NCBI GenBank assembly: GCA_900756495.1
Contig: CAAEKI010000018.1
Location: 1 to 30,746, forward strand
From: an uncultured Oscillospiraceae bacterium
GTDB lineage: Bacteria > Bacillota > Clostridia > Oscillospirales > Oscillospiraceae
DNA: 30,746 nt
Direction: 5' to 3'
The notes beneath the pieces are model-generated. The model worked only from the letters and a program-made list of their open reading frames with translations. It made no database searches and was not told the origin of the DNA. Positions 3,647 to 17,501 of this stretch are shown here, in pieces (position 1 is the first letter of the stretch; the number at the start of each line of letters is the position of its first letter). Made by a program: the position numbers and the translations under genes.

Positions 3647-4931
3647 CTCTCTCTGCTCCTTCCTGATAGACGATCTCGCCGCCTACTATCGTATACTTGA
3701 CCTTGCCCTTGAGCCTCCGCCCGGCAAAGGGGGTGTTGCGTCCCTTGGAGGCAAAGCGCTCAGGTTCCACGGTCCACTCCTCCTCCGGGTCAAAGATGAC
3801 CACATCAGCATCAGCCCCAACCGCCAGGCGGCCCCGGTTCTTCCGGAGAATGCAGGCCGGATTGATGGTCATCTTCCTCAAAATATCAGAGAGCCCCATT
3901 TCGCCTGTGTGGTAGAGCTCAGTAAGGGTTACAGCCAAAGCGGTCTCCAGCCCCACCATTCCGCTGGGCGCTTCCGCAAGAGGCCGCGCCTTCTCCTCGG
4001 CGGAGTGAGGGGCGTGGTCTGTGGCAATGGCATCTATGGTACCGTCCTTCAGTCCATCTATAATGGCTTCCACATCGGCACGGGTACGCAGAGGAGGATT
4101 TACCCTTGCCAAAGAGCCTTTGCTCAGGATCTCGTCCTCCGTCAGGGAAAAATACTGCGGGCAGGTCTCGCAGGTAATCTGCACGCCCTTGCGCTTATAG
4201 CGCCGAACCAGGGCCACCGACTTGGCTGTGGAGATATGGCAGATATGAACCGCCGCTCCCGTCTCCTCGGCCAGCATAGCGTCCCGGGCCACCATAATCT
4301 CCTCGGCAATGGCCGGACGGCCGTTGAGGCGGAGCTGACGAGAAACCCGCCCCTCATTGACCGCATAATTCTTCACCATGTCGGCATCCTCGCAGTGGGA
4401 GAGGATCGTGAGTCCCTGACGGTGCGCCAGGATAAGGGCGTCCCGCATCAGATTGGCATTCTGTACCGGCACTCCATCGTCGGAGAGCGCCACTGCTCCG
4501 GCCCCCTTAAGCGCCTCAAAGTCAGTGAGCTGTTCGCCCTTCTGGCCCACCGTTACCGCGCCGATAGGCAGCACCCGCACGCCGCAGGCCGCTCCCGCTT
4601 TTTCCAGCACATAGTCGATGGCCTCCGGGCTGTCGGTGGCAGGTTTGGTGTTCGGCATACAGGCGATGGAGGTAAAACCGCCCCGAGCGGCGGCGGCCGT
4701 CCCGGTCTCAATGGTCTCTTTATACTCAAAACCGGGCTCCCGCAGATGAACATGCATATCCACCAGCCCGGCACACACGGTCATACCGCGGGCGTTGATC
4801 TCCTGTGCCGCAGGATCCCGCAGGTTGCTGCCGATCACAGCCACCTTGCCGTCCTCCAGCAGAATATCCATTACGCCGCCGATTCCCCCCACGGGGTCTA
4901 CCAGTCTTCCCTGGCGTATAAGCAGCTTCAC
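3636..4931 (-). CDS. pyrC: Dihydroorotase
   Basis: This 431-residue zinc amidohydrolase cyclises carbamoyl aspartate to dihydroorotate. Metal-binding and catalytic motifs visible in order are DMHVHLREPG, the TILSHCEDADM histidine, the VHICHISTAKS histidine and the IDAIATDHAPHSAEEK aspartate. The frame is open far upstream, but the likely start is the GTG at 4931: AAAGGAG lies 7 bases before it and the protein then begins VKLLIRQGRLVDPV, as in the family. The GTG choice also leaves room for a leader containing a hairpin and a promoter. It is the first gene of a minus-strand pyr operon. pyrB, pyrE, carAB and pyrR are not in the window. Confidence 0.96.
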   Translation of the reverse strand: MKLLIRQGRLVDPVGGIGGVMDILLEDGKVAVIGSNLRDPAAQEINARGMTVCAGLVDMHVHLREPGFEYKETIETGTAAAARGGFTSIACMPNTKPATDSPEAIDYVLEKAGAACGVRVLPIGAVTVGQKGEQLTDFEALKGAGAVALSDDGVPVQNANLMRDALILAHRQGLTILSHCEDADMVKNYAVNEGRVSRQLRLNGRPAIAEEIMVARDAMLAEETGAAVHICHISTAKSVALVRRYKRKGVQITCETCPQYFSLTEDEILSKGSLARVNPPLRTRADVEAIIDGLKDGTIDAIATDHAPHSAEEKARPLAEAPSGMVGLETALAVTLTELYHTGEMGLSDILRKMTINPACILRKNRGRLAVGADADVVIFDPEEEWTVEPERFASKGRNTPFAGRRLKGKVKYTIVGGEIVYQEGAERDVL

Positions 4932-4957
4932 AATCTCACTCCTTTCGGTATTGGGAC

Positions 4958-4996
4958 ATGGAAAAAGGGCCCGGGTCCTCCCCCGCCCTTTTCCAT
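4958..4996 (-). terminator. Hairpin in the pyr operon leader, possible attenuator
   Basis: On the minus strand ATGGAAAAGGGC can pair with GCCCTTTTTCCAT across a loop of about 14 GC-rich bases. The A and U tracts sit inside the stem, so a shorter GGGC/GCCC hairpin followed by five U residues would resemble an intrinsic terminator. It lies between the predicted promoter and the pyrC ribosome binding site, where many pyrimidine operons have an attenuator. I see no convincing competing antiterminator and no clear PyrR-binding loop, so the regulatory role is inferred. Confidence 0.5.
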
Positions 4997-5022
4997 CCAG
5001 AGTCATTTCATACATCAAGTAC

Positions 5023-5051
5023 ATTATATATGGAATCGCTTTTTTTAGCAA
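5023..5051 (-). promoter_or_regulatory. Predicted promoter of the pyr operon
   Basis: On the minus strand a TTGCTA -35 box (5046-5051) and a perfect TATAAT -10 box (5023-5028) are separated by 17 bases. Transcription should start near 5015, giving a leader of about 85 bases before the pyrC GTG at 4931. The spacing and the -10 match are those of a strong housekeeping promoter. Confidence 0.75.
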
Positions 5052-5128
5052 TGGATTTTTCACGTAAACTGGGCACAATATCGTCAGACGGCTGATGCCG
5101 AATGAATGCAAATGAGGAGGAAGCAGTT

Positions 5129-5305
5129 ATGAGTCACCATCCCTTTTGGAGGGGCGTAGGCCTGGGCGCACTGGCCGGAGCGGCTATCGCCGTAGGCCTG
5201 TCTATGACTCCCAAGGACCGCAATGCCGTAAAGCGCAGCGCCCGCCGGGCCGCCCGTGCCGTGGAGCACGCCGTGGAAGATGTTACCGACAGCATCGGTA
5301 TTTGA
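5129..5305 (+). CDS. Small single-pass membrane protein, YtxH-like
   Basis: This 58-residue protein begins MSHHPFWRGVG. It has one glycine- and alanine-rich hydrophobic segment at about residues 8-24, then a basic helix (KDRNAVKRSARRAARAVEH) and an acidic tail. This layout resembles short YtxH-like envelope proteins, but I cannot assign a function. The ATG at 5129 was chosen because GAGGAGGAAG sits 6-10 bases upstream, while the earlier in-frame ATG at 5102 lacks such a site. It is divergent from the pyr operon and convergent with ribokinase, and a hairpin terminator lies downstream. No convincing promoter was found upstream. Confidence 0.7.
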   Translation: MSHHPFWRGVGLGALAGAAIAVGLSMTPKDRNAVKRSARRAARAVEHAVEDVTDSIGI

Positions 5306-5341
5306 GTGCAACGGCAGGCGCAGTAGCGGCGTCTAGAAAAA

Positions 5342-5386
5342 ATACCGCGGTCAGGAGCCACAAGTTCGGGCTCTTGACCGCGGTAT
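5342..5386. terminator. Hairpin terminator between ribokinase and the small membrane gene
   Basis: An 18-bp stem pairs 5342-5359 with 5369-5386, with one G-T pair and a loop of about 9 bases. On the minus strand it follows the ribokinase stop by 5 bases and ends in a T-rich run (TATTTTTTCT), the usual form of an intrinsic terminator. On the plus strand a weaker T run follows, so it may also stop transcripts of the small membrane gene. The stem shares GCGGTCAG and GAGCC with the hairpin at 15575-15624. Confidence 0.85.
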
Positions 5387-5391
5387 CACTT

Positions 5392-6294
5392 TTACGCCTG
5401 AGACTGCAGCTCACGCCAGGTAGGCAGAGATGGCTGCGCGCCGTGCTTTTGCACCGCATAGGCTGCTGTATCCTGGCCGATCCGGACAGCCTCCTCTATT
5501 GTGTATCCCTGCTCCAGACCATGTGCCAGCCCGCCCAGGAACGCATCTCCTGCCGCAGTGGTGTCCACCGCGGTTACCTTCCGCGCCGGATAAAATGATA
5601 CGCCCTTAGGTCCCGCCAGCATGGCGCCGCGCTCTCCAAGTGTCACGACAACCAGTCCGGCTCCTCCGGCTCGCAATATCCCGGCCGCTTTTTCCAACTC
5701 CGCTTCACTCTCACAGGGCAGTCCCGTCAGCATAGCCAGCTCAATCTGGTTGGGTGCCAGAATATCGGTACAGCGCAGTATTTTCTCGGTCAGCGGCCGG
5801 GCTGGCGCTGGGTTCAGTAGCGTTTTGCACCCTGCCGCTCGGGCGCGGCAGAGTGCGGCTTCTACCACAGGTATCGGCACCTCCAATTGGAACATCATCA
5901 AGGATGCCTCTCTGAAACAGTCAGCCGCCCGGTCCAGGTCCTCCTCTGTCAGCGCAAAGTTGCTGCCCGGCACTACTACGATATTGTTGTGCCCTGCCCT
6001 GTCCACTTGGATCAGCGCAATTCCGCTCTCACACGTCCCGGTGCGCCGGATATAGGCGGTGTCCACACCGTTCTCCCGTAGCCCCTGCTCCAAGGCGTCC
6101 CCAAAGGCGTCTTTACCAAGGCAGCCCACAAAAGCCACCCGGCTGCCCAATCTGGCTGCCGCTACCGCCTGGTTGGCCCCTTTTCCCCCGGGGCTCTGGG
6201 CAAAGGATGTCCCCAGGACAGTCTCACCTACGGCCGGAATCACTGGGACATGTACCGACAGATCCATATTAATGCTGCCCACCACTGCTATCAT
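5392..6294 (-). CDS. rbsK: Ribokinase
   Basis: This 300-residue PfkB-family kinase is expected to convert ribose to ribose 5-phosphate in the cytoplasm. Family marks are the N-terminal VVGSINMDL, the sugar-binding SPGGKGANQAVAAARLG, and the C-terminal DTTAAGDAFLGGL, which holds the anion hole and catalytic Asp. These match ribokinase better than fructokinase or adenosine kinase. The start at 6294 has AAGGAG about 7 bases upstream and begins 3 bases after the stop of the preceding ATPase gene. It is the last gene of the minus-strand transport operon and is followed directly by a terminator. Together with the nucleoside hydrolase at the head of the operon it points to ribose released from a nucleoside as the end product. 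Confidence 0.92.
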   Translation of the reverse strand: MIAVVGSINMDLSVHVPVIPAVGETVLGTSFAQSPGGKGANQAVAAARLGSRVAFVGCLGKDAFGDALEQGLRENGVDTAYIRRTGTCESGIALIQVDRAGHNNIVVVPGSNFALTEEDLDRAADCFREASLMMFQLEVPIPVVEAALCRARAAGCKTLLNPAPARPLTEKILRCTDILAPNQIELAMLTGLPCESEAELEKAAGILRAGGAGLVVVTLGERGAMLAGPKGVSFYPARKVTAVDTTAAGDAFLGGLAHGLEQGYTIEEAVRIGQDTAAYAVQKHGAQPSLPTWRELQSQA

Positions 6295-6297
6295 GGT

Positions 6298-7407
6298 TTA
6301 TTGCTCCTTTTCATCCGCAGGAATGATACGCAGGCCGCTCTCCCCGTCAAACAGGTGGATTCGCTCCGGGCTAATCCGGAAATAAATCTCGTCGTCAGAG
6401 AGCCAGTCGGTCAGGTGTCCGTCCCTCTCAGCTCTGAGGATGGTGTCGCCGGCCCTGATGCTTACAATTGTGGTCTCGCCCAGCGCCTCCACCACGTAGA
6501 CGCTGCCCCTCCGGTAATCTTCCAGAGGCTCATGGGAGATCTCCACGTCATGGGGACGCACGCCGAAGACAACCTGTGCGCCTTCACGGATGTTATCGCC
6601 ATATCGGCGGACCGGTTCAAAAAGCGCCCCATCCTTTACAACCCGCAGTTCTCCATCCTCTCTGCGAATCACGCTTTCAATCAGGTTCATCTGCGGCGTA
6701 CCGATAAAACCCGCCACAAAGAGGTTCACCGGGCGGTAGTAAACTTCGTCGGGCGTGCCGATCTGCTGCATTCGCCCCTGATCCATAATCAGAATGTGGT
6801 CTGCCATTGTCATGGCCTCAATTTGATCGTGGGTCACATAGATGGTTGTCAACCCCAACTGGTCGTGGAGCCGCTTGATGACGCTACGCATATTGCTGCG
6901 CATTCTGGCGTCGAGATGGGATAGCGGCTCATCCATAATGGTCACATCCGGGTTGCGCACCAGAGCTCTGGCGATGGAAACCCGCTGCTTCTGTCCGCTG
7001 GATAGGGCCGCCGGCTGAAAGGTAAGCACATTGGTCAGCCGCAGCTTCCGGGCGATGGCGCACACCTTATCCTTTATCTCCTCCTCGGGCACCCTGTGGA
7101 TACGCAGGGGATAGGCAATGTTGTCAAAAATCGTAAAGTTGGGGTAAAGGCCGTAATTTTCAAAGGACATTGCCACATTTCTCTCCCGTGAGGACAGGTC
7201 GTTGACCCGTTTGCCGCCGATGAGCACGTCCCCCTCCGAGATCTCCTCCAGCCCGGCCAGCATCCGCAGAGAGGAGGTCTTACCGCAGCCTGAGGGGCCC
7301 AGGATGGCGAAAAACTCTCCGCTCCGGCAGACAAAGGACAGTTCCTGTACGGCCCGCACTTTTTTATCGTAGACCTTACATACCTGTCGGAATTCCACCT
7401 CAGCCAT
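6298..7407 (-). CDS. Carbohydrate-type ABC transporter ATPase, first of a pair
   Basis: This 369-residue MalK-like ATPase has Walker A GPSGCGKT (37-44), signature LSSGQ (135-139), Walker B TIMDE (156-160) and the H-loop His193. A C-terminal regulatory OB-type domain follows from about residue 240. Two residues differ from the norm: the Q-loop reads SFENYGLYPN with Glu83 where glutamine is usual, and the signature is LSSGQ rather than LSGGQ. The ATG at 7407 has GGGGGA upstream and gives a family-like MAEVEFRQVCKVY start, so the longer frame was rejected. It overlaps the second ATPase gene by 8 bases. The two ATPases probably form a heterodimer driving the two permeases encoded upstream. Confidence 0.92.
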   Translation of the reverse strand: MAEVEFRQVCKVYDKKVRAVQELSFVCRSGEFFAILGPSGCGKTSSLRMLAGLEEISEGDVLIGGKRVNDLSSRERNVAMSFENYGLYPNFTIFDNIAYPLRIHRVPEEEIKDKVCAIARKLRLTNVLTFQPAALSSGQKQRVSIARALVRNPDVTIMDEPLSHLDARMRSNMRSVIKRLHDQLGLTTIYVTHDQIEAMTMADHILIMDQGRMQQIGTPDEVYYRPVNLFVAGFIGTPQMNLIESVIRREDGELRVVKDGALFEPVRRYGDNIREGAQVVFGVRPHDVEISHEPLEDYRRGSVYVVEALGETTIVSIRAGDTILRAERDGHLTDWLSDDEIYFRISPERIHLFDGESGLRIIPADEKEQ

Positions 7408-8527
7408 TGTATCCCCCACCGTCCCTTCCGTCAATTCTGATCTTCTCCTCTGGATCAAAGAGGCAGATTCTTCCTGGGGCCGGCGTGAGATACACCGTTT
7501 CTCCTCGCTGATATGAACGGTCCCGCGGCAGCTTGACCAGCACCATCGTGTTGGCCACGTTGACCTCCATGATCTGCTTGGCTCCGGTCGGAAGGATCCC
7601 CTCTATGCGGCCCGGCAGGCAGTCTCCCTCCGGTCTCTGCCGATCCAACCGGATTTCAGAGGGACGGATGCCAAGGTCCACCGGACCCAGCCGCTTAGGA
7701 AGCCGAGCCAAGCCCAAGGAGAGCCCCTCGCGGAACTGGACCCGCACCTCATTCCCCGCCGCGGCCAGATCGCCCCGCAGGAAGTTCATGGGCGGCTCAC
7801 CTACTGTGGAGGCTACAAACTCGTGGACGGGATTCTCATAGATCTCCTGGGGAGTACCCTGTTGCATCACGCGGCCGCCGTCGATCACCACAATACGGTC
7901 GGCCATTCCCATCGCCTCCACATAGTCGTGTGTGACATAAATGATGGTAGCCCCCAGATCCTGGTGCAGACGCTTGAGCTCAGCACGCATGCTGTTGCGC
8001 AGCTTGGCGTCCAGATGGGCGATGGGCTCGTCCATTAAAATGACGTTCGGCTCTGGTGAGCGTACCAAGGCCCGCGCCAGGGAGACCCGCTGCCGCTGAC
8101 CGCCGGAGAGCTGGCTGGGTTTCCGATCCAGCAGCCCGTCCAGCCCTACGATCTCCGCCCACTCCATCACAGTACGTTCGATCTCCTCCGCCGTCAGTTT
8201 CTGCTTTCGGGTCGGCGCCTTGAGCGGAAAGGCCAGATTTTCCCGCACAGTGAAGTGGGGATAGAGGGCGTAGCTCTCAAACACCATGGACACGTTGCGC
8301 TTCTGCGGGGGCGCATCGGTCATGTCCACCCCGTCGATCAGCAGTCTGCCCTCTGTCAGCTCCTCCACCCCCGCAATCATCTTCAGTGTGGAGGTCTTAC
8401 CCGCCCCTGACGGACCAAGGATGGCCAGGAATTCCCGATCCCTGCATTCGATGGAGAGGTGCTCCACAGCGGTCACCCTCCCGCCGCGATAACGCTTTGT
8501 GGCGTCTTCCAGGACAATATGCGCCAT
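7400..8527 (-). CDS. Carbohydrate-type ABC transporter ATPase, second of a pair
   Basis: This 375-residue MalK-like ATPase has Walker A GPSGAGKT (38-45), signature LSGGQ (140-144), Walker B VILMDE ending at residue 167 and the H-loop His200. A C-terminal regulatory domain follows. As in its partner, the Q-loop has glutamate (MVFESYALYPH, Glu84) in place of glutamine. The ATG at 8527 is preceded by GGAGGG and starts MAHIVLEDATKRY, as in relatives; the upstream part of the frame would overlap the permease gene. Two different adjacent ATPases also occur in the rhizobial glycerol system GlpSTPQV, whereas most CUT1 operons have one ATPase or none. The pairing suggests a dedicated heterodimer. Confidence 0.92.
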   Translation of the reverse strand: MAHIVLEDATKRYRGGRVTAVEHLSIECRDREFLAILGPSGAGKTSTLKMIAGVEELTEGRLLIDGVDMTDAPPQKRNVSMVFESYALYPHFTVRENLAFPLKAPTRKQKLTAEEIERTVMEWAEIVGLDGLLDRKPSQLSGGQRQRVSLARALVRSPEPNVILMDEPIAHLDAKLRNSMRAELKRLHQDLGATIIYVTHDYVEAMGMADRIVVIDGGRVMQQGTPQEIYENPVHEFVASTVGEPPMNFLRGDLAAAGNEVRVQFREGLSLGLARLPKRLGPVDLGIRPSEIRLDRQRPEGDCLPGRIEGILPTGAKQIMEVNVANTMVLVKLPRDRSYQRGETVYLTPAPGRICLFDPEEKIRIDGRDGGGYNG

Positions 8528-8540
8528 GTCTCTCCCTCCT

Positions 8541-9395
8541 CTACTTGCTGGCGCTGCCGAAGGACAGCCCCTTGACCAGATACTTGTCCATGACAACAGC
8601 AATAATGGTGGGCGGAATAATTGCGACAATCCCCAGGGCGGAGATAATGGACCACTCCGGTTTCATCTGTGCATTCATGCTGGAGATGAGCACCGGGATG
8701 GTCTGCGCCTTCTGAAAGGTCAGAATAAGCGCAAAAAGGAACTCGTTCCATGCAAAGTTGAAAGCCAGAGTAAAGCATGTGGCCAGTCCTGGGGCGGCCA
8801 GAGGCAAGACAATCTTCCGAATCTGGCTGAACTTGGAGTAGCCGTCCACCGCCGCCGCGTGTTCCAGCTCAGGAGGAATCCCCGCGAAGAAATCCTTGAG
8901 CAGGTACACGGTGATGGGCAGATTCATCCATGTGTAGACCAGTATCATGCCCCCCAGTGAATCCAGCAGGTTAATGGATGAGAACATAATAAACAGGGCG
9001 ATGACCGCCACGATGGGGGGCATCATGCGCTGGGAGAGAATGAGAAAGGCCAGTCCTTCGCTGTCCTTGCCCATATAATTGTACTGGTAGCGGGACAGTC
9101 CGTAGGCCGCCATGGCGCCGATGACCAGCGCCAGTACGGAGCTGACCAGGCTGATGATAATGCTGTTTTTCAGCCCCAGAAAGAAGCTGCGGGAGCCCGT
9201 GGTAAACAGATATGTCCAAGCCGAGGTGTTGGGCGTAAAGTCAATGCCCGGAAGATAATAGGGGCCGCCGTAAATATCCACCTGGGACTTAAAGGAGGTA
9301 ATCAGCGTCCAATAGATGGGAAAGGTGACGCAGATAATCCAGATGGTAATCAGGATAACCCGCAGTATGTGCGCTTTCCTTCCACTTTTAATCAT
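8541..9395 (-). CDS. ABC transporter permease, MalG/UgpE type
   Basis: This 284-residue inner-membrane subunit has about six hydrophobic segments, the first at residues 10-31. The ATPase-contacting EAA loop is recognisable as EHAAAVDGYSKF followed by IRKIVLPLAAPG. The length and the N-terminal helix followed by a long outer loop are typical of the MalG half of CUT1 sugar transporters. The start at 9395 overlaps the stop of the other permease gene as ATGA, so the two subunits are probably coupled in translation. It lies 13 bases before the ATPase pair. The substrate is inferred only from the neighbouring enzymes. Confidence 0.92.
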   Translation of the reverse strand: MIKSGRKAHILRVILITIWIICVTFPIYWTLITSFKSQVDIYGGPYYLPGIDFTPNTSAWTYLFTTGSRSFFLGLKNSIIISLVSSVLALVIGAMAAYGLSRYQYNYMGKDSEGLAFLILSQRMMPPIVAVIALFIMFSSINLLDSLGGMILVYTWMNLPITVYLLKDFFAGIPPELEHAAAVDGYSKFSQIRKIVLPLAAPGLATCFTLAFNFAWNEFLFALILTFQKAQTIPVLISSMNAQMKPEWSIISALGIVAIIPPTIIAVVMDKYLVKGLSFGSASK

Positions 9396-10330
9396 TCCTC
9401 TGCCTCCTCGTCCTCATAAACGGAAAAGTCCTCGTCCTCTGTCAGCCGAAGGCTGGCCTGGAGACGCCTGGTCCTTCCCTTCTGAATACTCGTGACCACC
9501 TGGGCAACCGCCAGTACAAATACCAGCATAATTACGCATAGGGCGGCCGATTTACCCAGCGTGAAGTTGCGCAACCCTACCTGATAGGCGTACATGGAGG
9601 CCGACATGCTGGACACGCCGGGGCCACCGGCGGTAATGATGTAAATAGTGTCAAAGATCTTAAAGGTCTCAATGGCTCTCAGTGTAATAGCCACCACAGA
9701 AGCGGGAAGAAGCATCTTGAATATCAGGTCGAAAAAGATGCGCCCCTCCTTGGCGCCATCCACCCGCGCCGATTCCAGCGGCTCCTTGGGCAGGGACTGA
9801 AAGCCCGCCAGCAGGATAAGGGTGATAAAGGGCGTCCACTCCCAGACGTCCACCAGCATCACCGCCAGCAGTGAATAACCCGACTTGGAGATCCAGGGGA
9901 TGCCCGGGATGCCAAACAGGGAGAGAATGTGATTTAAGGGACCATATAGTTCGTTAAACATCTGCTTCCACATAAAGCCGATGACCACGGGAGCCATCAG
10001 CATGGGGAGCAGCATTGCGATGCGGATGAGCTTTTTGCCCCGGATGAGCTTGTTGATGTTATAGGCCAGCACCATAGCCAAAACATATTCCACCGCCACC
10101 GAGACCACCGTAATAACAACGGTATTGAGCATGGTACGCCAGAAAGTGCCGTTCTGAAAAGCCGATATGTAATTTGCAAGCCCCACGAACTGGATATTGC
10201 CTCCTAGCTTCCAGTTGCACAGGCTCATGACAATATTAAAAACCAGCGGAAAGATAGTGATGGCGACAAAGAGAATCAGGGCGGGTGCAATCAAAACGTG
10301 CTTAATTGCGTCCGGCTTTCTTTTTTTCAT
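9392..10330 (-). CDS. ABC transporter permease, MalF/UgpA type
   Basis: This 312-residue permease has about six membrane segments and an EAA loop (PLESARVDGAKEG, then FKMLLPASVVA). It begins MKKRKPDAIKHVLIAPALILF, as is usual for the MalF half of CUT1 transporters without the extra E. coli MalF domain. The C-terminus ends in a strongly acidic tail (DEDFSVYEDEEAEE) that would face the cytoplasm and is not part of the core fold. The ATG at 10330 has AAGGAG about 9 bases upstream. The gene follows the solute-binding protein gene across a 64-base gap that holds a 30-base perfect palindrome. Confidence 0.92.
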   Translation of the reverse strand: MKKRKPDAIKHVLIAPALILFVAITIFPLVFNIVMSLCNWKLGGNIQFVGLANYISAFQNGTFWRTMLNTVVITVVSVAVEYVLAMVLAYNINKLIRGKKLIRIAMLLPMLMAPVVIGFMWKQMFNELYGPLNHILSLFGIPGIPWISKSGYSLLAVMLVDVWEWTPFITLILLAGFQSLPKEPLESARVDGAKEGRIFFDLIFKMLLPASVVAITLRAIETFKIFDTIYIITAGGPGVSSMSASMYAYQVGLRNFTLGKSAALCVIMLVFVLAVAQVVTSIQKGRTRRLQASLRLTEDEDFSVYEDEEAEE

Positions 10331-10350
10331 GGCTGAAAGCTCCTTTGACA

Positions 10351-10380
10351 GGGCCGGGGGCGCTGCAGCGCCCCCGGCCC
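10351..10380 (-). repeat. Perfect 30-base palindrome between the binding protein and permease genes
   Basis: The arm GGGCCGGGGGCGCTG is followed directly by its exact reverse complement, giving a 13-bp stem with a TGCA loop in RNA. No U run follows on the minus strand, so it is not a classical terminator. In other ABC operons a stem-loop at this place protects the binding-protein mRNA and keeps that protein in excess over the membrane subunits. I infer the same role here. Confidence 0.85.
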
Positions 10381-10394
10381 ACTTCCTTTCTGCG

Positions 10395-11948
10395 TCAGTT
10401 TACACCGGTACCGGTCGTGACGTTGGCATAGGTGTTGTGGTAAAACTCCAGCTGGCTCTCCCTTCCCTGTTCGTCGGTAATCTCCTCCCAGGAGTCGTAT
10501 ACATACTGCAGGGCGTGGGGAACGTCCAGATCGCCGGACAGCGCCTGGGATACCCCCAAATCCAGAGCGTCCAGATAGGAGCCCGCCTTGGGAAGCCGCA
10601 TATCCAGCTGCACGTTGGGGTGAGTGTAAGACTCCAGGATGGTATCGATGAACTCTTTGGCGTTGTAGAAATGGATTGCGGAATTCTCCCATGCAGCCGC
10701 GTCAGTCAGATGCTCCAGGCGGTAGGGATTCCGGGCCGTACCGTCGGTAGTGACGGCCGCCAGGGAGTTTTCATCGTTGTCCATCAGGTTTAAAAAATCG
10801 GCGGCTACCTGGGGATTGGCACAGGTTGAGGTCACCGAAGCCGTCCATCCGCTAAAGGCCAAGTAGGGCGCGTACTGGATCTCATCAAATTTATCCCACT
10901 GTTCCGTCTCCGGATTCCAGCACTCATAGGTGCCGGGCACCAGGGCATAGCCTACGTTCTCCTTGACCACAGAGGAATCCGGATTTTGGGCCATGATGCC
11001 GGTGTCGTGCCAGTCGATAGCCATAGCCGCCTCGCCGGCGGCAAAAGCCGCCCGCTCGTCGCCACCGCCGTAGTTGATCATATTGGGCGGTCCGAACTGC
11101 AGGATCCTGGTGTATTCCTCCAGTGCCCGCTCGTAAGCGGGGCTCTTTACCTCCGGCTCCAGTGTCTCATAGTCGAAAAAGGCATAGCCCGGATAGTCAG
11201 GGTGGGCGGCATAGGTAATTGCATGCGTCAGGAAGATATAACCGCCCACATCCTTGGGGGCCATTGCCTCAATGGTGCCATACTCCAGCTCGCCGTCGCC
11301 GTCCCAGTCCCAACCGTTAAAGAATTCAGCCACATCAATGTACTGATCCCAAGTCGTGGGGACTGTCAATTCGTAACCGTACTTCTCTTGGAACATAGCC
11401 TTGTATTCTTCGTTCTCCAGGGCGTCCTTGCGGTAATAGAGAATGATGCTGTCGCCATCCAGGGGCACAGCGTAGCACTTGCCGTCATACATCTGCATGT
11501 CGTAGTATGCGTCGATCAGGGTGTCCCAGTTATCCTTTTCCGTCAGGTATTCATCCAGCGCGATGACGGAATTTCCCTGAATGAATTCAGACAGCCAGTT
11601 AGAGGGATAGATGGCAATGTCATAGGCTGCCGTATTGGTGGCGAAAGAGGTACACAGCTTTTCGTAGAGGGATCCGAAGGGAATCTCCACAACGTTAATG
11701 GTAATCCCCGGGTTATCAGCCTCAAACTGCTCCTTGGCGGTGTATACACTGGATGTGGCAAAACTGCCTACCGCCACATTGATCACCGTTTCCTCATTGC
11801 CGGAACCGCCGCTCTGACTCTGCTGGCCGGACGCCTGCGGGCCTTCAGTTCCTGCACCGCTCCCGGATCCGCTTCCGGAACAGGCGGCCAATCCCATGAT
11901 CAGGGCTCCGGCTAGAAGCAGGGACAGTATTTTCTTGTTCAGTTTCAT
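10395..11948 (-). CDS. Lipoprotein solute-binding protein of the ABC transporter
   Basis: This 517-residue extracellular binding protein of family 1 has a signal peptide MKLNKKILSLLLAGALIMG and a lipobox LAAC with the lipidated Cys at residue 23. A flexible serine- and glycine-rich linker follows. The mature part starts EETVINVAVGSFATSS and continues with the two-lobe pattern of CUT1 sugar-binding proteins, including DNPGITINVVEIPFGSLYEK. The ATG at 11948 was chosen over the one at 11954 because the GGGAGG site lies directly against the latter. It lies 22 bases after the nucleoside hydrolase gene. The ligand is unknown; the context suggests a ribonucleoside or another ribose-bearing molecule. 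At about 495 mature residues it is larger than many family members. Confidence 0.92.
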   Translation of the reverse strand: MKLNKKILSLLLAGALIMGLAACSGSGSGSGAGTEGPQASGQQSQSGGSGNEETVINVAVGSFATSSVYTAKEQFEADNPGITINVVEIPFGSLYEKLCTSFATNTAAYDIAIYPSNWLSEFIQGNSVIALDEYLTEKDNWDTLIDAYYDMQMYDGKCYAVPLDGDSIILYYRKDALENEEYKAMFQEKYGYELTVPTTWDQYIDVAEFFNGWDWDGDGELEYGTIEAMAPKDVGGYIFLTHAITYAAHPDYPGYAFFDYETLEPEVKSPAYERALEEYTRILQFGPPNMINYGGGDERAAFAAGEAAMAIDWHDTGIMAQNPDSSVVKENVGYALVPGTYECWNPETEQWDKFDEIQYAPYLAFSGWTASVTSTCANPQVAADFLNLMDNDENSLAAVTTDGTARNPYRLEHLTDAAAWENSAIHFYNAKEFIDTILESYTHPNVQLDMRLPKAGSYLDALDLGVSQALSGDLDVPHALQYVYDSWEEITDEQGRESQLEFYHNTYANVTTGTGVN

Positions 11949-11970
11949 GTTCATCCTCCCATCTTTTTTC

Positions 11971-12954
11971 TCACTTACAGATCTTCTCTGTAAAGTCTTC
12001 TGTGAAACGGACGTTGTCCACGCCGATGGCCACATTCATGTTGGGTGCCATCTTCTTGGGAATGGTCCTGAGGATGTCGTTGCGGATGAGCATATCGCGA
12101 AGAATCACCGTGGGGACAAATTCGGCGTCCACATGAAGCCTGGCCTCCTTGATAAAGCTGCGATCCAGAGCCACACCGATGGTAAGAGGGTCGTGAAGCC
12201 ACAGTCCTGTAAATTCAGTGGGAATGCCAACGCTGGTGTAAATGAGGTATTCCTGCTCCGGCCAGACTGCAATGATGTCGGAGACCTGCCGTGCAATGGG
12301 GGTATCTGTGCTTTGGATACGCTCCACCTGTTCCTTGCTCAACGGCACCTTCAGCGTCACGTCGATGGGAACCAGGGTGATGTTGATGCCAGACTTCCAT
12401 ACAATCTGGGTGGCGAAGGCGTCGTTGTTCAGATTATATTCCTCCACTGGAGATCGGGCGATTCCCTTTTCATCCACGATGGGGACGATGACTCCGCCCA
12501 TGATGATGAGCTCTTTGGCCAATTCAGCCACCTTAGGCTCTTTCATCAGCGCCGCCGCCACGTTGGTCACGGTGCCGGTGGTGATAATGGTCACCTCACC
12601 GGGATACTGGGTCACAGCTTCAATAATCTTGTCGTCGGCGCACGTCCCATCAGGCTCCAGGGTGGGATCTTCCCAGTCTCCATCCACCAAAATATTCTGC
12701 CCCTCAAAGCCAAACATATAGGCTCCGCCGCTCATTGAGCCGGGAATTCCGGCATAGACGGGGATCTCAGGCCGTCCTGCTACCCGGAGCAGCTTTTTTG
12801 CGATGCGGGCCCGCAGTCGTGTGTCTCCATAAGAGGAATTGACGGCCAGGATATCCAAATCTTCATTCTGAACTGCATAGAGTAGCGCGAATGCATCGTC
12901 ATAATAGGTGCCGTAGTCTGAGTCGATAATGACCTTCTTTTTTTCCCGTTCCAT
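11971..12954 (-). CDS. Nucleoside hydrolase (inosine-uridine-preferring family)
   Basis: This 327-residue protein has the marks of the nucleoside hydrolase family, which splits ribonucleosides into a free base and ribose. The N-terminal calcium and ribose site reads DSDYGTYYDDAFAL (Asp11, Asp13, Asp19, Asp20), compared with the classical DTDPGIDDA. The middle motif TTGTVTNVAAAL, the ribose-binding EYNLNNDAFAT and the C-terminal LHDPLTIG are also present. It has no signal peptide and should act in the cytoplasm on an imported substrate. It is the first gene of the transport operon, with AAGGAGG about 7 bases before the ATG at 12954. The tyrosines in the first motif are unusual, so base or sugar preference may differ from known enzymes. 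Confidence 0.88.
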   Translation of the reverse strand: MEREKKKVIIDSDYGTYYDDAFALLYAVQNEDLDILAVNSSYGDTRLRARIAKKLLRVAGRPEIPVYAGIPGSMSGGAYMFGFEGQNILVDGDWEDPTLEPDGTCADDKIIEAVTQYPGEVTIITTGTVTNVAAALMKEPKVAELAKELIIMGGVIVPIVDEKGIARSPVEEYNLNNDAFATQIVWKSGINITLVPIDVTLKVPLSKEQVERIQSTDTPIARQVSDIIAVWPEQEYLIYTSVGIPTEFTGLWLHDPLTIGVALDRSFIKEARLHVDAEFVPTVILRDMLIRNDILRTIPKKMAPNMNVAIGVDNVRFTEDFTEKICK

Positions 12955-13024
12955 TTCAGTCCTCCTTCTTCACTGTTGCATTGTCCTGTGCGGGTATCTT
13001 CTGGCAGGTCTTTTCTGCACCTCC

Positions 13025-13054
13025 ATTGTACGGTTGCCGCCGCCGCGGCGTAAA
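13025..13054 (-). promoter_or_regulatory. Predicted promoter of the nucleoside hydrolase-transporter operon
   Basis: On the minus strand a TTTACG -35 box (13049-13054) and a TACAAT -10 box (13025-13030) are 18 bases apart. The spacer contains the palindrome CGCCGCGGCG (13041-13050), which overlaps the -35 box and could be an operator. The long spacer and imperfect -35 suggest a promoter that needs an activator, which suits the divergent AraC-type gene. Confidence 0.5.
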
Positions 13055-13075
13055 GGCGCGTTTCTTCATATTGTG

Positions 13076-13130
13076 GTATTGAATTCGCTGTTCCTACGTA
13101 GTCAAATTTTCATTTTATAGTCTTCAATAC
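13076..13130. promoter_or_regulatory. Inverted repeat upstream of the transporter operon, possible operator
   Basis: GTATTGAA at 13076-13083 is the exact reverse complement of TTCAATAC at 13123-13130. The arms are 39 bases apart in the AT-rich part of the divergent intergenic region. They lie upstream of the minus-strand promoter and near the regulator promoter, a position suited to the AraC-type regulator. The function is inferred. Confidence 0.3.
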
Positions 13131-13151
13131 ATGAATCTTCGTCCCGATTCT

Positions 13152-13179
13152 TTTACGGCAATTGTGAATGTGCTACAAT
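13152..13179 (+). promoter_or_regulatory. Predicted promoter of the AraC-type regulator gene
   Basis: TTTACG (13152-13157) and TACAAT (13174-13179) are 16 bases apart; a reading one base upstream, TTTTAC, gives 17. The same two hexamers occur in the opposing promoter at 13025-13054. The -10 box ends 28 bases before the regulator ATG at 13208. Confidence 0.5.
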
Positions 13180-13207
13180 AACAGTGAGATTCAGGGAGGT
13201 GTCGTCT

Positions 13208-15559
13208 ATGGGAATTTTTCAGTTTTTAAAAGGAAACGTCGCTGTGGGCGAGGAGCGGAGGCACGCCCTCCGGATGTTTCTGCTGGCATGCGCTTCGGTT
13301 GTGGCCCTCTGTATAGGCATTTCCCTGCTCTTCTATCAAGTATACAAATCCTCCCTCACCAACGAATCCATCTCAGCCAGCGCCCGCATGCTGGATCGTA
13401 CCGACATGATGATTTCCGAGGCCTTTGGTCAGATTGAAAATATCGCCTACCAGCAGGCGCTGGCAACAGCCCGCCTAATCAACGAGAGCGATCGGGACAT
13501 CGTTCACGACTATTACCGTCTCCAGCGTCTGACTGACAGCCTGATCAACATGAAGAACTCCCACAGCTACATCCATTCGGCCTATGTCTATTTCAATCAG
13601 GGCAGCGTCATCGTCACCTCCTTCATGGGTACCACCTCCTTCCGCCTGTTCTACGACACTGCCTGGCTGGAGGTCTACGGAAAGCACGCCGGAGAAATCG
13701 TCTGGATCAACGGCCGCAAGCCATATAACGCACAGTATGAGGGTTCTCAGGATGTTTTGGCAAAATACCATGACGACACCAGTGATATACTCACCCTGCT
13801 GGTTCCCCTCTCCAATTCTCTGAGGTCCAAAGGGGGCGTTATTGTTATCAACGTCTATGAGCGGGAGATTGCCAAGCTGCTCAGCGAGGGGGCAAACGGC
13901 GCCGAAATGCTTATGATGGATGAAAGCGGCCGTGTTGTCGTCTCGGCAAACAAGGACCTGCTATACACCGCTCTGCCTGAGGCGCTCTTCACCTCTATTT
14001 CCGGTTCGGGCAGCGACAGCGGCAATTTTCACTACCGTGACGAGGCGTCAGGCGGCGAGTATCTCTGTGTCTACGCCCGCTCCCGCTTCAACCAAAACTA
14101 CATTCTGGAGCTGCTCCCCCTCTCCGAGGTCCTGGCCCCTACGGCAGGCCTGCTGCGCAGCATCATCCTGTATGCCCTGCTCTTCCTCATCGCCGCCCTC
14201 GTCCTGGTTATGGTGCTGCTGAACCTCTCCTACCGGCCGGTACGCCAGCTCTACAGGGAACTGGGCAAAAGCGTCTCCGTACCGGTCTCCGACGCCAACC
14301 CGGCTGCCCTCCAGCGCACCATCATGAAACTGATCCAGGACAACCGCACCCTCACCAAGCTTTGGGAGAACAACCGGATGCTTATCAAGCACCGTAACCT
14401 GTCCATCTTGCTCCAAGGAAAAATGAGCGCCTTTGACGACGATCCGAAACGGCTCGAGTTCTTGGAAATCCGCTTTCCATATCGCTATTACGTGTGCTGC
14501 GTTCTCCATCTGGGCGCGGCGCAGCACTCGAATATCATCCTGGACGAGCAGTATGAGCTGGTAAAAATGCAGCTCTTCCCCATGGTCCAGCAGTGTCTTA
14601 CGCCCCCTATCTGGGGTTACACGGTAGACCTGGACGACCTGAATGTAGCCCTCATTCTGAATGTGGCCGACAGTAATCCCGGTCTGATCCTAAATCTGTG
14701 CCAACAGATTCAGAAAATTGCATTGGACTCCAAGATCATCCCCTTTCCCCTGTCCATAGGTATCGGCAGCCATGTTACCGAGCTGGGCGGCATCTCCCTC
14801 TCCTTCCGGCAGGCCTGTTCCGCCGTGCGGTACGCCGCCGGAAACTGTCCCGGTGAAGTCATCAGCTTCTCCAGTATTTCGGTTTCCCCCCTGCCGGTGG
14901 AGTGGAGCGGCTCTCCGGAGGAGAGCGAACTGCTGGACGCCATACGCATCGGCGATCTGGCCGCTGCCCGGTCAAGCCTGGAGCGCTGGTTTGAAAATCT
15001 CCGCCGTGCAGGACTTCCCCTGGCTGTGGTAAAGCAGATTGCATCCAAACAGGCGGGGCAAATACTCGGCCTGCTATCGGAGCTTGGAATCTCCATCGGC
15101 TCCTCCAACCTCACGCTTACCGGCGAACTGCCGCATATGTCCAGCCTGGATGACATCAAAGCCCGCGTTTTGGATCTCTCGGAGCACATCTGTTCCCAAA
15201 TTCAAATTCGACGGGAACATAAAAATGCTGAAACGATGGAAAAGGTCATCGCCTTTCTGCGCCAGAGCTACAACCAGGATATCTCTCTCAACCAAGTGGC
15301 GGAAGACGTCTATATGAGCGTCCCCTATCTCTGTAAGGTGTTCAAGGAGTATACAGGCACAACCTTTACCGACTACCTGACCACCCTTCGCATTGAAGCG
15401 TCCCTTCCCCTGCTGCGGGACAGCAACAGGAAGGTCATGGATATCGCCTCATGTGTCGGCTATTCAAATGTCCAAAGCTACATCCGGGCTTTTAAGAAAA
15501 TCCACAGCATGACCCCGTCCGAATACCGGGAGTCCAATATTCCACACAACCTGAGGTAA
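13208..15559 (+). CDS. Membrane-bound AraC-family transcriptional regulator with extracellular sensor
   Basis: This 783-residue protein has a transmembrane helix at about residues 22-44, an extracellular domain of about 270 residues that looks Cache-like, and a second helix at about 317-338. A large cytoplasmic middle region follows, then a C-terminal AraC-type DNA-binding domain at about 675-776. The two helix-turn-helix units are visible as ISLNQVAEDVYMSVPYLCKVF and KVMDIASCVGYSNVQSYIRAF. This is the architecture of Bacillus YesS and YtdP, which combine sensing and DNA binding in one chain without a histidine kinase. The ATG at 13208 has GGGAGG about 8 bases upstream. It is divergent from the transporter operon and most likely controls it. 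Its signal could be the transported compound or the loaded binding protein. Confidence 0.9.
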   Translation: MGIFQFLKGNVAVGEERRHALRMFLLACASVVALCIGISLLFYQVYKSSLTNESISASARMLDRTDMMISEAFGQIENIAYQQALATARLINESDRDIVHDYYRLQRLTDSLINMKNSHSYIHSAYVYFNQGSVIVTSFMGTTSFRLFYDTAWLEVYGKHAGEIVWINGRKPYNAQYEGSQDVLAKYHDDTSDILTLLVPLSNSLRSKGGVIVINVYEREIAKLLSEGANGAEMLMMDESGRVVVSANKDLLYTALPEALFTSISGSGSDSGNFHYRDEASGGEYLCVYARSRFNQNYILELLPLSEVLAPTAGLLRSIILYALLFLIAALVLVMVLLNLSYRPVRQLYRELGKSVSVPVSDANPAALQRTIMKLIQDNRTLTKLWENNRMLIKHRNLSILLQGKMSAFDDDPKRLEFLEIRFPYRYYVCCVLHLGAAQHSNIILDEQYELVKMQLFPMVQQCLTPPIWGYTVDLDDLNVALILNVADSNPGLILNLCQQIQKIALDSKIIPFPLSIGIGSHVTELGGISLSFRQACSAVRYAAGNCPGEVISFSSISVSPLPVEWSGSPEESELLDAIRIGDLAAARSSLERWFENLRRAGLPLAVVKQIASKQAGQILGLLSELGISIGSSNLTLTGELPHMSSLDDIKARVLDLSEHICSQIQIRREHKNAETMEKVIAFLRQSYNQDISLNQVAEDVYMSVPYLCKVFKEYTGTTFTDYLTTLRIEASLPLLRDSNRKVMDIASCVGYSNVQSYIRAFKKIHSMTPSEYRESNIPHNLR

Positions 15560-15635: not shown

Positions 15636-17501
15636 CTATCGAAGTGCGCTGGCATTGGGGTCATAGGATTGGGAGGCCGCCAGAATCTCCTCGTAGGCCC
15701 AGTGATTCTCCGGCACATCGCTGAAGGGCATGGAGGCCTCAGTGTTCCTGCCGGTCTCGCGCTCCAGAGCCCGGTTAAGTATTTTGACCGCCTCAGCCCG
15801 GGAGATCGGGCTGTCCGGCCGGAAGGAGCCGTCCGGATAACCGGAGATCCATCCCTGCTCCGCTGCGCAGGCGATAGGGGCGGCGGCCCAATGGCCTGCC
15901 GGCACATCGGAAAAGGCGCTCGCTCTTTCTGCCTCCGGCCAGTCGAAGTAGGCCGCTATCAGCTTTACCAGCTCCGACCGGTTCACCGGCGCATCGGGCC
16001 GGAATGTGCCGTCCAGGTAGCCGTCTGCCACGCCATATTCCCAGGCAAAGGCCACATAGGAGGCATACCAGGCGCTGCGGTCCACATCGGAAAAGGGGGC
16101 CGTAGCCTGCCCGGGATAGAGGTTGTTCCCATCCCCGTCCACGCTGAGACGGGAGAGCAGCGTGACCGCCTCTGCACGGCTCAGAGAAGCCTCAGGCCGG
16201 AAGAGCCCGGCATTCCCCTCAATATATGCCTCGTGTCCCTCACGATTCAGGTAGGGACGCGCAGGCGGTTCCGGTCTGGGCGCAGGCTCTTCCACAGCAT
16301 ATGCCGCCTGATAGAGCGCAGTCAGAGCCGGGTTATCCGCTATCAGTTTATAGCGGAAGTGAACCTCACCTGCCACCTGTGGCAGCGTATCGTTCAGCTC
16401 CAGCTGGGCCTCAATCGCCTCTGTACCATACCAGGGGTCCTTGGGATCGCTGCTACCCGCCAGATAGTCGGCCATTCCGATGTACAGGGAAACACCCGTT
16501 CCCTTTACCGTATCCGCCCACCAGCGGGCCACAGTGGCGTAGTCCATCTTTTTATGTCCGATGTACCAGTAAATCTGAGGGCAGATATAGTCAATCCATC
16601 CCTCTTTGACCCACTTGCGGCTGTCGGCGTAGGCGGCGTAATAGCTCTCATAGCCGCCTGTGGTATTGGAGCCCTCAGGACGGCTGCTCCGATCCGCCCA
16701 GACTCCGGAGGGACTAATCCCATAGGAGAGAGCCGGATCGATGGCGTGGAGGCGCTCTCCCAGCTCTTTCACCAGTTTATTGACGTTCTCACGCCGCCAA
16801 TCTCCACGGCTGGAAAAGCCCTTTCCGTATTTGGCATAGGCGTCTTCATCGCGAAAGTCCGATCCGGGATAGAAGTAGTCGTCCAGGTGGATTCCGTCAA
16901 TATCGTAGTTCCGAACCAGCTCCTCCGCACCTTGAATCACCAGTTCCCGCACCTCCGGTAATCCCGGATTGAAATACCGGTCCCCCTGGTACTCCACGAC
17001 CCATTCCGGATGGAGTACCGCCGGGTTGTCAGGGGAGAGCGCTGCATACTCCGCCTCTCCCCCCTTGGTCACCCGAAAGGGGTTGAGCCAGGCGTGGAGC
17101 TCCAGTCCAAGGGCATGGGCCCGCTCCACCCAGTAGGCCAAGGGGTCAAAGCCCTCTGACGGAGCCTTTCCCTGTGTCCCGGTGAGATACTTGCTCCAGG
17201 GAAATATGCGCGAGGGATACAGGGCGTCACTGGAGGGGCGCACCTGCAATATAACCGCATTCATCCCCATCTCCAGGCACTCCTGAAGGATCTCGTCAGC
17301 CTCCTGCTTCAGGGTAGCCGGACTGGTCGTCGCCCTGGAGGGATAGTCCAGATTATATACGGTAGCGACCCACATTCCTCTAAATTCCTTTGCAGCCGCC
17401 GGCGCCGCAGACGCTGCCTGTGAATCAGCCGGGGCGCTGGCCGTCAGCATCAGCAGCAGCGCCAATACTCCGGCGGCAATTTGTCTCATTCCTTTCTGCA
17501 T
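15636..17501 (-). CDS. Secreted GHL10-type glycoside hydrolase with SLH repeats
   Basis: This 621-residue exported protein has a signal peptide at residues 1-30 or so. A GHL10-type (DUF187, YngK-like) catalytic domain follows at about residues 38-400. Marks include FRGMWVATVYNLDYPS, MNAVILQVRPSSDALYPS, AWLNPFRV, NYDIDGIHLDDYFYPG and DYICPQIYWY. The Asp-rich strand and the Glu/Asp-bearing barrel loops suit a hydrolase acting on wall or polysaccharide substrates, but the substrate is not known. From about residue 420 there are S-layer homology units with GYLDGTFRPDAPVNRSE and GYPDGSFRPDSPISRAE. The SLH region begins and ends with half units, so the repeats look cut out of phase. SLH repeats usually attach proteins to pyruvylated wall polymers. 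The ATG at 17501 has GGAGGAG upstream. Confidence 0.9.
   Translation of the reverse strand: MQKGMRQIAAGVLALLLMLTASAPADSQAASAAPAAAKEFRGMWVATVYNLDYPSRATTSPATLKQEADEILQECLEMGMNAVILQVRPSSDALYPSRIFPWSKYLTGTQGKAPSEGFDPLAYWVERAHALGLELHAWLNPFRVTKGGEAEYAALSPDNPAVLHPEWVVEYQGDRYFNPGLPEVRELVIQGAEELVRNYDIDGIHLDDYFYPGSDFRDEDAYAKYGKGFSSRGDWRRENVNKLVKELGERLHAIDPALSYGISPSGVWADRSSRPEGSNTTGGYESYYAAYADSRKWVKEGWIDYICPQIYWYIGHKKMDYATVARWWADTVKGTGVSLYIGMADYLAGSSDPKDPWYGTEAIEAQLELNDTLPQVAGEVHFRYKLIADNPALTALYQAAYAVEEPAPRPEPPARPYLNREGHEAYIEGNAGLFRPEASLSRAEAVTLLSRLSVDGDGNNLYPGQATAPFSDVDRSAWYASYVAFAWEYGVADGYLDGTFRPDAPVNRSELVKLIAAYFDWPEAERASAFSDVPAGHWAAAPIACAAEQGWISGYPDGSFRPDSPISRAEAVKILNRALERETGRNTEASMPFSDVPENHWAYEEILAASQSYDPNASALR

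Follow-up and report, generated by a model that had tools for sequence, protein, structure and literature searches.

A CUT1-type importer with paired ATPases, encoded with a nucleoside hydrolase and a ribokinase: a candidate N-riboside uptake system

What does an ATP-binding cassette (ABC) importer of the CUT1 type carry when its genes share an operon with those for a nucleoside hydrolase (NH) and a ribokinase? This question is raised by a contig of 30,746 nucleotides (nt) from an uncultured Oscillospiraceae bacterium (GenBank assembly GCA_900756495.1, contig CAAEKI010000018.1), which is referred to below as the window. Its minus-strand run 12954-5392 consists of seven tightly spaced genes that encode, in this order, NH, a solute-binding protein (SBP), MalF- and MalG-like permeases, two MalK-like ATPases (MalK1 and MalK2) and the ribokinase RbsK; every open reading frame (ORF) is intact, and the successive intergenic gaps are 16, 64, -4, 13, -8 and 3 nt. 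The results presented here support the view that the NH, the CUT1 importer and the ribokinase are one inherited unit found in several phyla. The explanation that we favor, and consider fairly probable, is a CUT1 importer powered by a MalK1/MalK2 heterodimer that takes up a ribonucleoside or a similar N-riboside and acts with the hydrolase and the ribokinase under AraC-type control. The original prediction for this locus had missed that the two ATPases form a constant pair of paralogues whose motifs are unusual.

Operon organization and gene identities

The ORFs were taken from the window sequence, and the loci were scored against Pfam and NCBIfam cutoffs. The operon comprises:

11971..12954, minus strand: NH of a distinct clade, motif D-x-D-x-G-T-Y-Y-D-D; PF01156, 182.5 bits (cutoff 34.2), residues 8-318
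10395..11954, minus strand: solute-binding lipoprotein (SBP), family 1 (CUT1); SBP_bac_1, 94.6 bits (cutoff 26)
9392..10330, minus strand: MalF-like permease; BPD_transp_1, 60.3 bits (cutoff 26.4)
8541..9395, minus strand: MalG-like permease; BPD_transp_1, 60.3 bits (cutoff 26.4)
7400..8527, minus strand: MalK1 ATPase; ABC_tran, Q-loop Glu, switch His and LSGGQ kept
6298..7407, minus strand: MalK2 ATPase; ABC_tran, Q-loop Glu, signature LSSGQ, switch His kept
5392..6294, minus strand: ribokinase RbsK; TIGR02152, 338.1 bits (cutoff 299.65)

The predicted operon of NH, SBP, MalF, MalG, two MalK proteins and ribokinase is thus real, being made up of intact ORFs of the families that had been named; the earlier description needed refinement solely in the start sites and the terminator. 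The SBP has a lipobox, LAAC (identified by eye); its start, which had been placed at 11948, is taken here as 11954, the former being an in-frame ATG that could serve as an alternative. With a family 1 SBP, two BPD_transp_1 permeases and MalK-like ATPases, the importer belongs to the CUT1 type, and it reaches none of the substrate-specific CUT1 equivalog cutoffs of NCBIfam. Neither of the families typical of BMP-type importers, PF02608 (SBP) and PF02653 (permease), was detected by Pfam among the window proteins. TOBE_2 exceeds its cutoff in MalK1 only, not in MalK2. RbsK scores below the narrower PRK11142 model (286.1 bits, cutoff 341), and its closest solved relatives are ribokinases. A chance association of these genes is excluded because the same gene set occurs in other phyla.

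Recurrence of the gene set

A profile built from 23 NHs retrieved 18 loci in genome contigs; one of these (L018) was excluded as a distant relative whose match, at 40%, spans residues 203-323 only, and a locus from Chloroflexota (L032) was added, resulting in 18 further loci that encode an NH of this clade. The original prediction had proposed a search of genomes for the hydrolase-CUT1-ribokinase association and had regarded a hydrolase that is not conserved with the transporter as evidence against it. The two turned out to be conserved together across several phyla: NH, SBP, MalF, MalG, MalK1 and MalK2 are all present in 11 of the 18 loci (L001, L002, L004-L011 and L032), and RbsK is found in eight of these 11 (L002, L004, L005, L006 and L008-L011). 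Cassettes occur in Clostridia, Paenibacillus, Chloroflexota, Rhizobacter, Georgenia, Micromonospora and Propionibacteriaceae. Together with the window, this makes 12 cassettes. The gene order is not fixed, NH standing at either end, and this variation suggests that the set has been kept by selection and does not stem from a single recent transfer.

The trees of the cassette proteins are congruent. Over the 12 loci, NH and the importer proteins agree in their pairwise tree distances (r 0.83 with SBP, 0.84 with MalF, 0.77 with MalG, 0.73 with MalK1 and 0.74 with MalK2), and none of 2000 label shuffles gave values as high; for NH and RbsK, the correlation is weaker (r 0.61, nine loci, p 0.0045). 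A search of 18 genomes for the SBP yielded ten matches with E <1e-180, all inside an NH cassette, and six weaker places (E 1e-42 to 1e-58) elsewhere, in three genomes (G002, G003 and G005); none of these weaker relatives (L036-L041) has an adjoining tandem ATPase pair of the cassette kind. Among the metagenome matches listed, 13 contig sizes are common to the NH and SBP lists, whereas 400 shifted controls share 0.88 on average and 4 at most.

Few genomes carry the cassette. In the sets searched, and with the centre genomes counted, those with a clade NH numbered 1 of 200, 3 of 400, 1 of 346, 2 of 246 (with a sister NH in addition), 1 of 291, 2 of 150, 1 of 111, 1 of 87, 1 of 5 and 1 of 71, and the additional genome searches for cassettes produced a single new locus, L032.

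Genomic context of related hydrolases and the likely cargo

The more distant relatives of the NH bear on the cargo. The sister NH from a Paenibacillus genome (L033, 38% identity) is encoded in an operon with the order BMP-type SBP, ATPase, permease, permease, NH and a nucleoside phosphorylase (PNP_UDP_1), and the two best plasmid matches (alphaproteobacterial, 32-33% identity; 2 of 199 records examined) lie downstream of complete BMP importers. According to the literature, the import of nucleosides by BMP importers is established by experiment. An inherited unit of NH, CUT1 importer and ribokinase, combined with three more distant NHs in BMP operons, points to a nucleoside or another N-riboside as the likely cargo, one for which CUT1 is an unusual carrier, in agreement with the earlier claim that CUT1 is atypical for nucleosides. 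In bifidobacteria, the available text of PMC4746261 describes a regulon that combines an NH, RbsK and a transporter.

The lack of RbsD is also compatible with this view. RbsD converts pyranose ribose into furanose, the form used by RbsK, whereas the furanose is the direct product of a nucleoside hydrolase. The window and the 11 other CUT1 cassettes gave no RbsD match, unlike three of four SBP relatives that lack an NH, and this fits the import of a riboside since the NH would deliver ribofuranose.

Under the explanation that we favor, the lipoprotein SBP, MalF, MalG and the MalK1/MalK2 heterodimer would bring in a ribonucleoside or a close N-riboside; a cytoplasmic hydrolase would cleave it to a base and ribofuranose; the ribokinase would convert ribose to ribose 5-phosphate for central metabolism; and the released base would either enter salvage or leave the cell. 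The AraC-type membrane protein encoded opposite the operon would detect an external ligand and switch the operon. The predicted system would work like the BMP importers; it nevertheless lies outside that family and is a CUT1 importer with a motor of paired ATPases.

The association between the clade NH and the CUT1 importer is not exclusive: seven of the 18 loci lack the latter, three with CUT2-type parts and four with no recognized importer. In L017, the NH is accompanied by RbsK, LacI, a double ATPase, two BPD_transp_2 permeases and a PF13407 SBP, the only CUT2-type SBP checked against NCBIfam, which resembles RhaS and LsrB but is below cutoff. L015 combines a PF13407 SBP, an ATPase and a permease with a GMC oxidoreductase and, likewise adjoining the clade NH, a Gluconate_2-dh3 subunit; in L016, a GMC oxidoreductase, RbsK and a PF13407 SBP were recognized, along with putative ATPase and permease ORFs. 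The clade NH next to a CUT2-type SBP and a GMC oxidoreductase (7528-9974 in L015 and 7352-9001 in L016) possibly points to riboside or sugar oxidation. L003 has RbsK and LacI only, and no recognized partner was seen in L012, L013 or L014, L012 having GntR and a DctP protein nearby. Given that the clade NH occurs without this importer, the NH is the older and constant element, and the importer can be exchanged. Judged by the three more distant NHs in BMP operons, CUT1 appears to have replaced another transporter in nucleoside salvage. Of the earlier claim that a ribonucleoside or ribose conjugate is imported and split and its ribose phosphorylated, the N-riboside part remains likely on account of the conserved unit and the relatives in BMP operons. 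That the clade NH also occurs without this importer had escaped the original prediction.

Features of the hydrolase clade and alternative cargoes

The residues D11, D13, D19, D20, E172, N174, H254 and D255, which we take to be the metal and ribose set (the Asp cluster, E-x-N, and the His-Asp near the C terminus), are kept in the window NH and in 117-120 of 120 relatives, the gaps being due to fragments; thus, the catalytic Asp, Asn, Glu and His of N-ribohydrolases are retained in at least 117 of the 120 clade members. The clade departs from known enzymes elsewhere. The first motif, the metal loop, contains Tyr-Tyr (117 of 120 at each Tyr) and exceeds that of canonical enzymes by two residues; the Paenibacillus sister NH shares the long form but has D-I, and the BMP-linked alphaproteobacterial NHs have the short form. 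The base-side HG motif is absent: position 83 (F83) is Phe, Trp or Tyr and position 84 is Glu in all 120 sequences, with the alignment at these positions uncertain by two columns for distant enzymes. The scores are far under the NCBIfam equivalog cutoffs for RihA (115.2 against 433 bits), RihC (84.4 against 382), UriH (97.9 against 450) and RihB-type ribosylpyrimidine nucleosidase (78.5 against 459). These features make a distinct specificity of the NH clade likely. A structure model of the NH (pLDDT 86.0, pTM 0.89) is of low confidence at residues 160-165, 167-172 and 245-249, near the residues of interest, and no argument on the pocket is drawn from it.

These departures raise the possibility that the cargo is a non-standard riboside, such as a nucleoside with a modified base, an N-riboside of another kind or a conjugate of nucleoside and sugar, and that CUT1 is used because BMP-type importers refuse such a molecule. 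The missing HG motif, the Tyr-Tyr loop, the scores far below the RihA, RihC and UriH equivalogs, and the sparse distribution of the clade are in line with this scenario. Against it, the altered pocket residues identify no substrate, the sister NH at 38% identity still resides in a BMP and phosphorylase context, and no modifying enzyme (kinase, deaminase or glycosidase) was seen in the window operon. An unusual, modified nucleoside is thus a speculative cargo, compatible with the altered base-side residues but not demonstrated by them, and on balance we consider the scenario unlikely.

The relatives of the SBP on plasmids suggest another interpretation, namely that the importer takes up free D-ribose or another pentose, that the NH recycles nucleosides formed within the cell or entering it by another route, and that the two have only the ribokinase step in common. 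The four nearest plasmid relatives (35-37% identity; 4 of 794 records examined) have RbsK beside two and RbsD beside three of them, and no NH match beside any of the four; L019 has a 65-residue PfkB fragment and L022 has no kinase match. However, the clade SBP accompanies the NH in all ten genomes that hold it, the NH and transporter trees are congruent, and free ribose would profit from the RbsD that the 12 cassettes appear to lack, so that a pentose importer seems quite improbable. An O-riboside or a ribose-containing oligosaccharide, the bond of which would be cut by the NH-family enzyme, would agree with the oligosaccharides classically imported by CUT1 systems and with the GMC oxidoreductases of L015 and L016 (and Gluconate_2-dh3 of L015), but is very hard to reconcile with the retained catalytic residues of N-ribohydrolases and the nucleoside operons in which the NH relatives stand.

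Several observations weigh against N-riboside import itself. The SBP superfamily is sugar-binding, and we know of no nucleoside binder within it; there is no base-salvage gene in the operon, and the altered base pocket of the NH clade does not name a base; RbsK was not found in the examined flanks of L001, L007 and L032; and, besides the seven clade-NH loci without a CUT1 importer, L016 carries an RbsD-like gene (31.5%, 1e-22) beside its clade NH and CUT2 importer, which weakens the argument from RbsD. A CTP synthase gene adjoins L001, an observation that we regard as anecdotal.

The paired ATPases

In both ATPases of all 12 cassettes (24 of 24 proteins), the Q-loop Gln is replaced by Glu, and the Walker B Glu is retained in both. 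As a control, 100 MalK-like places outside the cassettes were collected from 16 of the same genomes (120 less 20 cassette genes), and the best 74 were read; among these 74, the Q-loop residue is Gln in 70 and Glu in 4, and the switch His is invariant (74 of 74). The four exceptions are two tandem pairs in Pseudonocardia that are associated with another enzyme set. In these two genomes (L138 and L139), the tandem ATPases belong to a different CUT1 system, with a 2-hydroxyacid dehydrogenase gene next in L139 and adjoining in L138.

Eight of the 12 cassettes (L004-L011) show two further changes: the switch His of MalK1 is replaced by Pro, and the signature Gln of MalK2 by Met, Val or Phe. The other four (the window, L001, L002 and L032) keep both the switch His and the signature Gln, and no cassette is mixed. 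The Walker and switch face of MalK1 and the signature of MalK2 make up one composite ATP site. The two changes therefore hit the same site twice and spare the other one in the eight cassettes, which are of the degenerate-site type; the window pair, in which only the Q-loop Gln is changed, is not. The best 120 MalK1-like metagenome proteins (of 8000 scored) have Glu in the Q-loop of 119, Pro (88) or His (32) at the switch position, and LSGGQ in 119.

A similar asymmetry is found in the GlpSTPQV glycerol importer of Rhizobium, likewise a CUT1 system with two different ATPases. In pRL9, GlpS has Thr in place of the switch His and an intact LSGGQ, and GlpT has the His and the signature LTADQ, the same split as in the eight cassettes. 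GlpS and GlpT differ from the cassette ATPases in that their Q-loop Gln is kept and they do not group with MalK1 or MalK2 in the tree. The window system is not GlpSTPQV: GlpV aligns with the SBP over 154 residues only (32%, 1e-14), and GlpU and glpDK are absent from the window. In its own right, the pRL9 locus (L141, 15753-17909) is a probable one-site motor in a known glycerol importer.

Fitch parsimony requires three changes over 148 tips, and this small number indicates that the eight degenerate loci do not represent eight events. In the tree, MalK2 forms a clade (support 0.87), and MalK1 does so (0.92) only when two Pseudonocardia sequences and one from Rhizobacter are included. This grouping, together with the GlpS/GlpT split, implies that the duplication predates the cassette and that the asymmetric split arose outside the cassette as well.

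Degenerate ATP sites are described for the ABC exporters TM287/288 and TmrAB, where, in the available text of PMC7756269, two types of nucleotide-binding domain form one altered composite site, as in the eight cassettes; by contrast, the window system is a CUT1 importer, and neither of its ATPases has lost the Walker B Glu.

Comparison with known systems and implications

The closest functional analogs would be the BMP-type importers with an NH (BmpA-NupABC, PnrA, NupNOPQ and NupDABC), which are alike in binding-protein import and in the hydrolase or phosphorylase encoded in the same operon (L033, L034 and L035). They differ in their parts, with a PF02608 SBP, BPD_transp_2 permeases and one double-domain ATPase, compared to SBP_bac_1, BPD_transp_1 and two single-domain MalK proteins in the window. 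The RbsR2 and RbsR3 nucleoside regulons of bifidobacteria (rbsK, rihC, rihP/rihT) resemble the window in linking a hydrolase, a ribokinase and a transporter; in the available text of PMC4746261, rihP, rihT and nupC are described just as predicted ribonucleoside transporters, whereas the window importer is of the CUT1 type. The rhizobial and roseobacter CUT1 systems linked to RbsD and RbsK (pRL8 and others), which include the plasmid SBP relatives considered above, have one UgpC-type ATPase with a Q-loop Gln. The single-ATPase CUT1 systems on plasmids L042-L045 are ordinary.

In the open-licence PMC literature, we found no description of a CUT1 nucleoside importer or of a degenerate-site CUT1 importer, which is weak evidence of absence. 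We tentatively raise the possibility of an undescribed class of CUT1-type nucleoside or N-riboside importers, spread across phyla with a dedicated hydrolase clade and an obligate Glu-Q-loop MalK1/MalK2 heterodimer, one ATP site of which would be disabled in most lineages. If so, a transporter class deemed specific for sugars and polyols would also serve nucleoside scavenging, and many annotations of "multiple sugar transport" in this SBP clade would be wrong on the substrate. Together with GlpS/GlpT, one-site motors would have evolved more than once among CUT1 importers, and these natural systems would allow the maltose-transporter model, with its two equal ATP sites, to be compared with one-site relatives, making the number of ATP sites needed a testable question.

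Regulation and other features of the window

13184..15559, plus strand: divergent membrane AraC-type regulator; HTH_AraC, HTH_18 and GGDEF_2 above cutoff, dCache_1 below it (30.9 against 45)
12955..13183: common intergenic region with promoter-like sites at 13054-13025 (minus strand) and 13152-13179 (plus strand)
10351..10380: 13-bp GC hairpin separating the SBP and MalF genes; RNA fold including flanks, -36.6 kcal/mol, z -3.61
5325..5400 (folded stretch), minus strand: intrinsic terminator 3' of rbsK, hairpin and T tail; -42 kcal/mol, z -8.31

The facing membrane AraC-type regulator of the original prediction is borne out, its AraC HTH domains scoring above cutoff. Similar regulators oppose the cassette in L001 and L032 only; LacI-type genes are found nearby in L002, L003, L004, L011 and L017 (five confirmed by Pfam among those tested). 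Over 4900-13400, promoter-like patterns number 9 against 5.2 (standard deviation (sd) 2.2) in shuffled sequences, not clearly beyond chance, and terminator-like patterns number 8 against 7.0 (sd 2.7), near expectation. The terminator after rbsK is as stable in none of 200 shuffles; the downstream pyr genes are therefore probably a separate unit, and a functional tie between them and the operon was abandoned. The very GC-rich hairpin at 10351-10380 may perhaps serve differential mRNA stability.

Elsewhere in the window, an ORF at 22792-24402, among his genes, resembles HisZ fused to HisG, and two ORFs (15636-17501 and 24628-26901) have signal peptides and C-terminal SLH-like repeats, all identified by eye.

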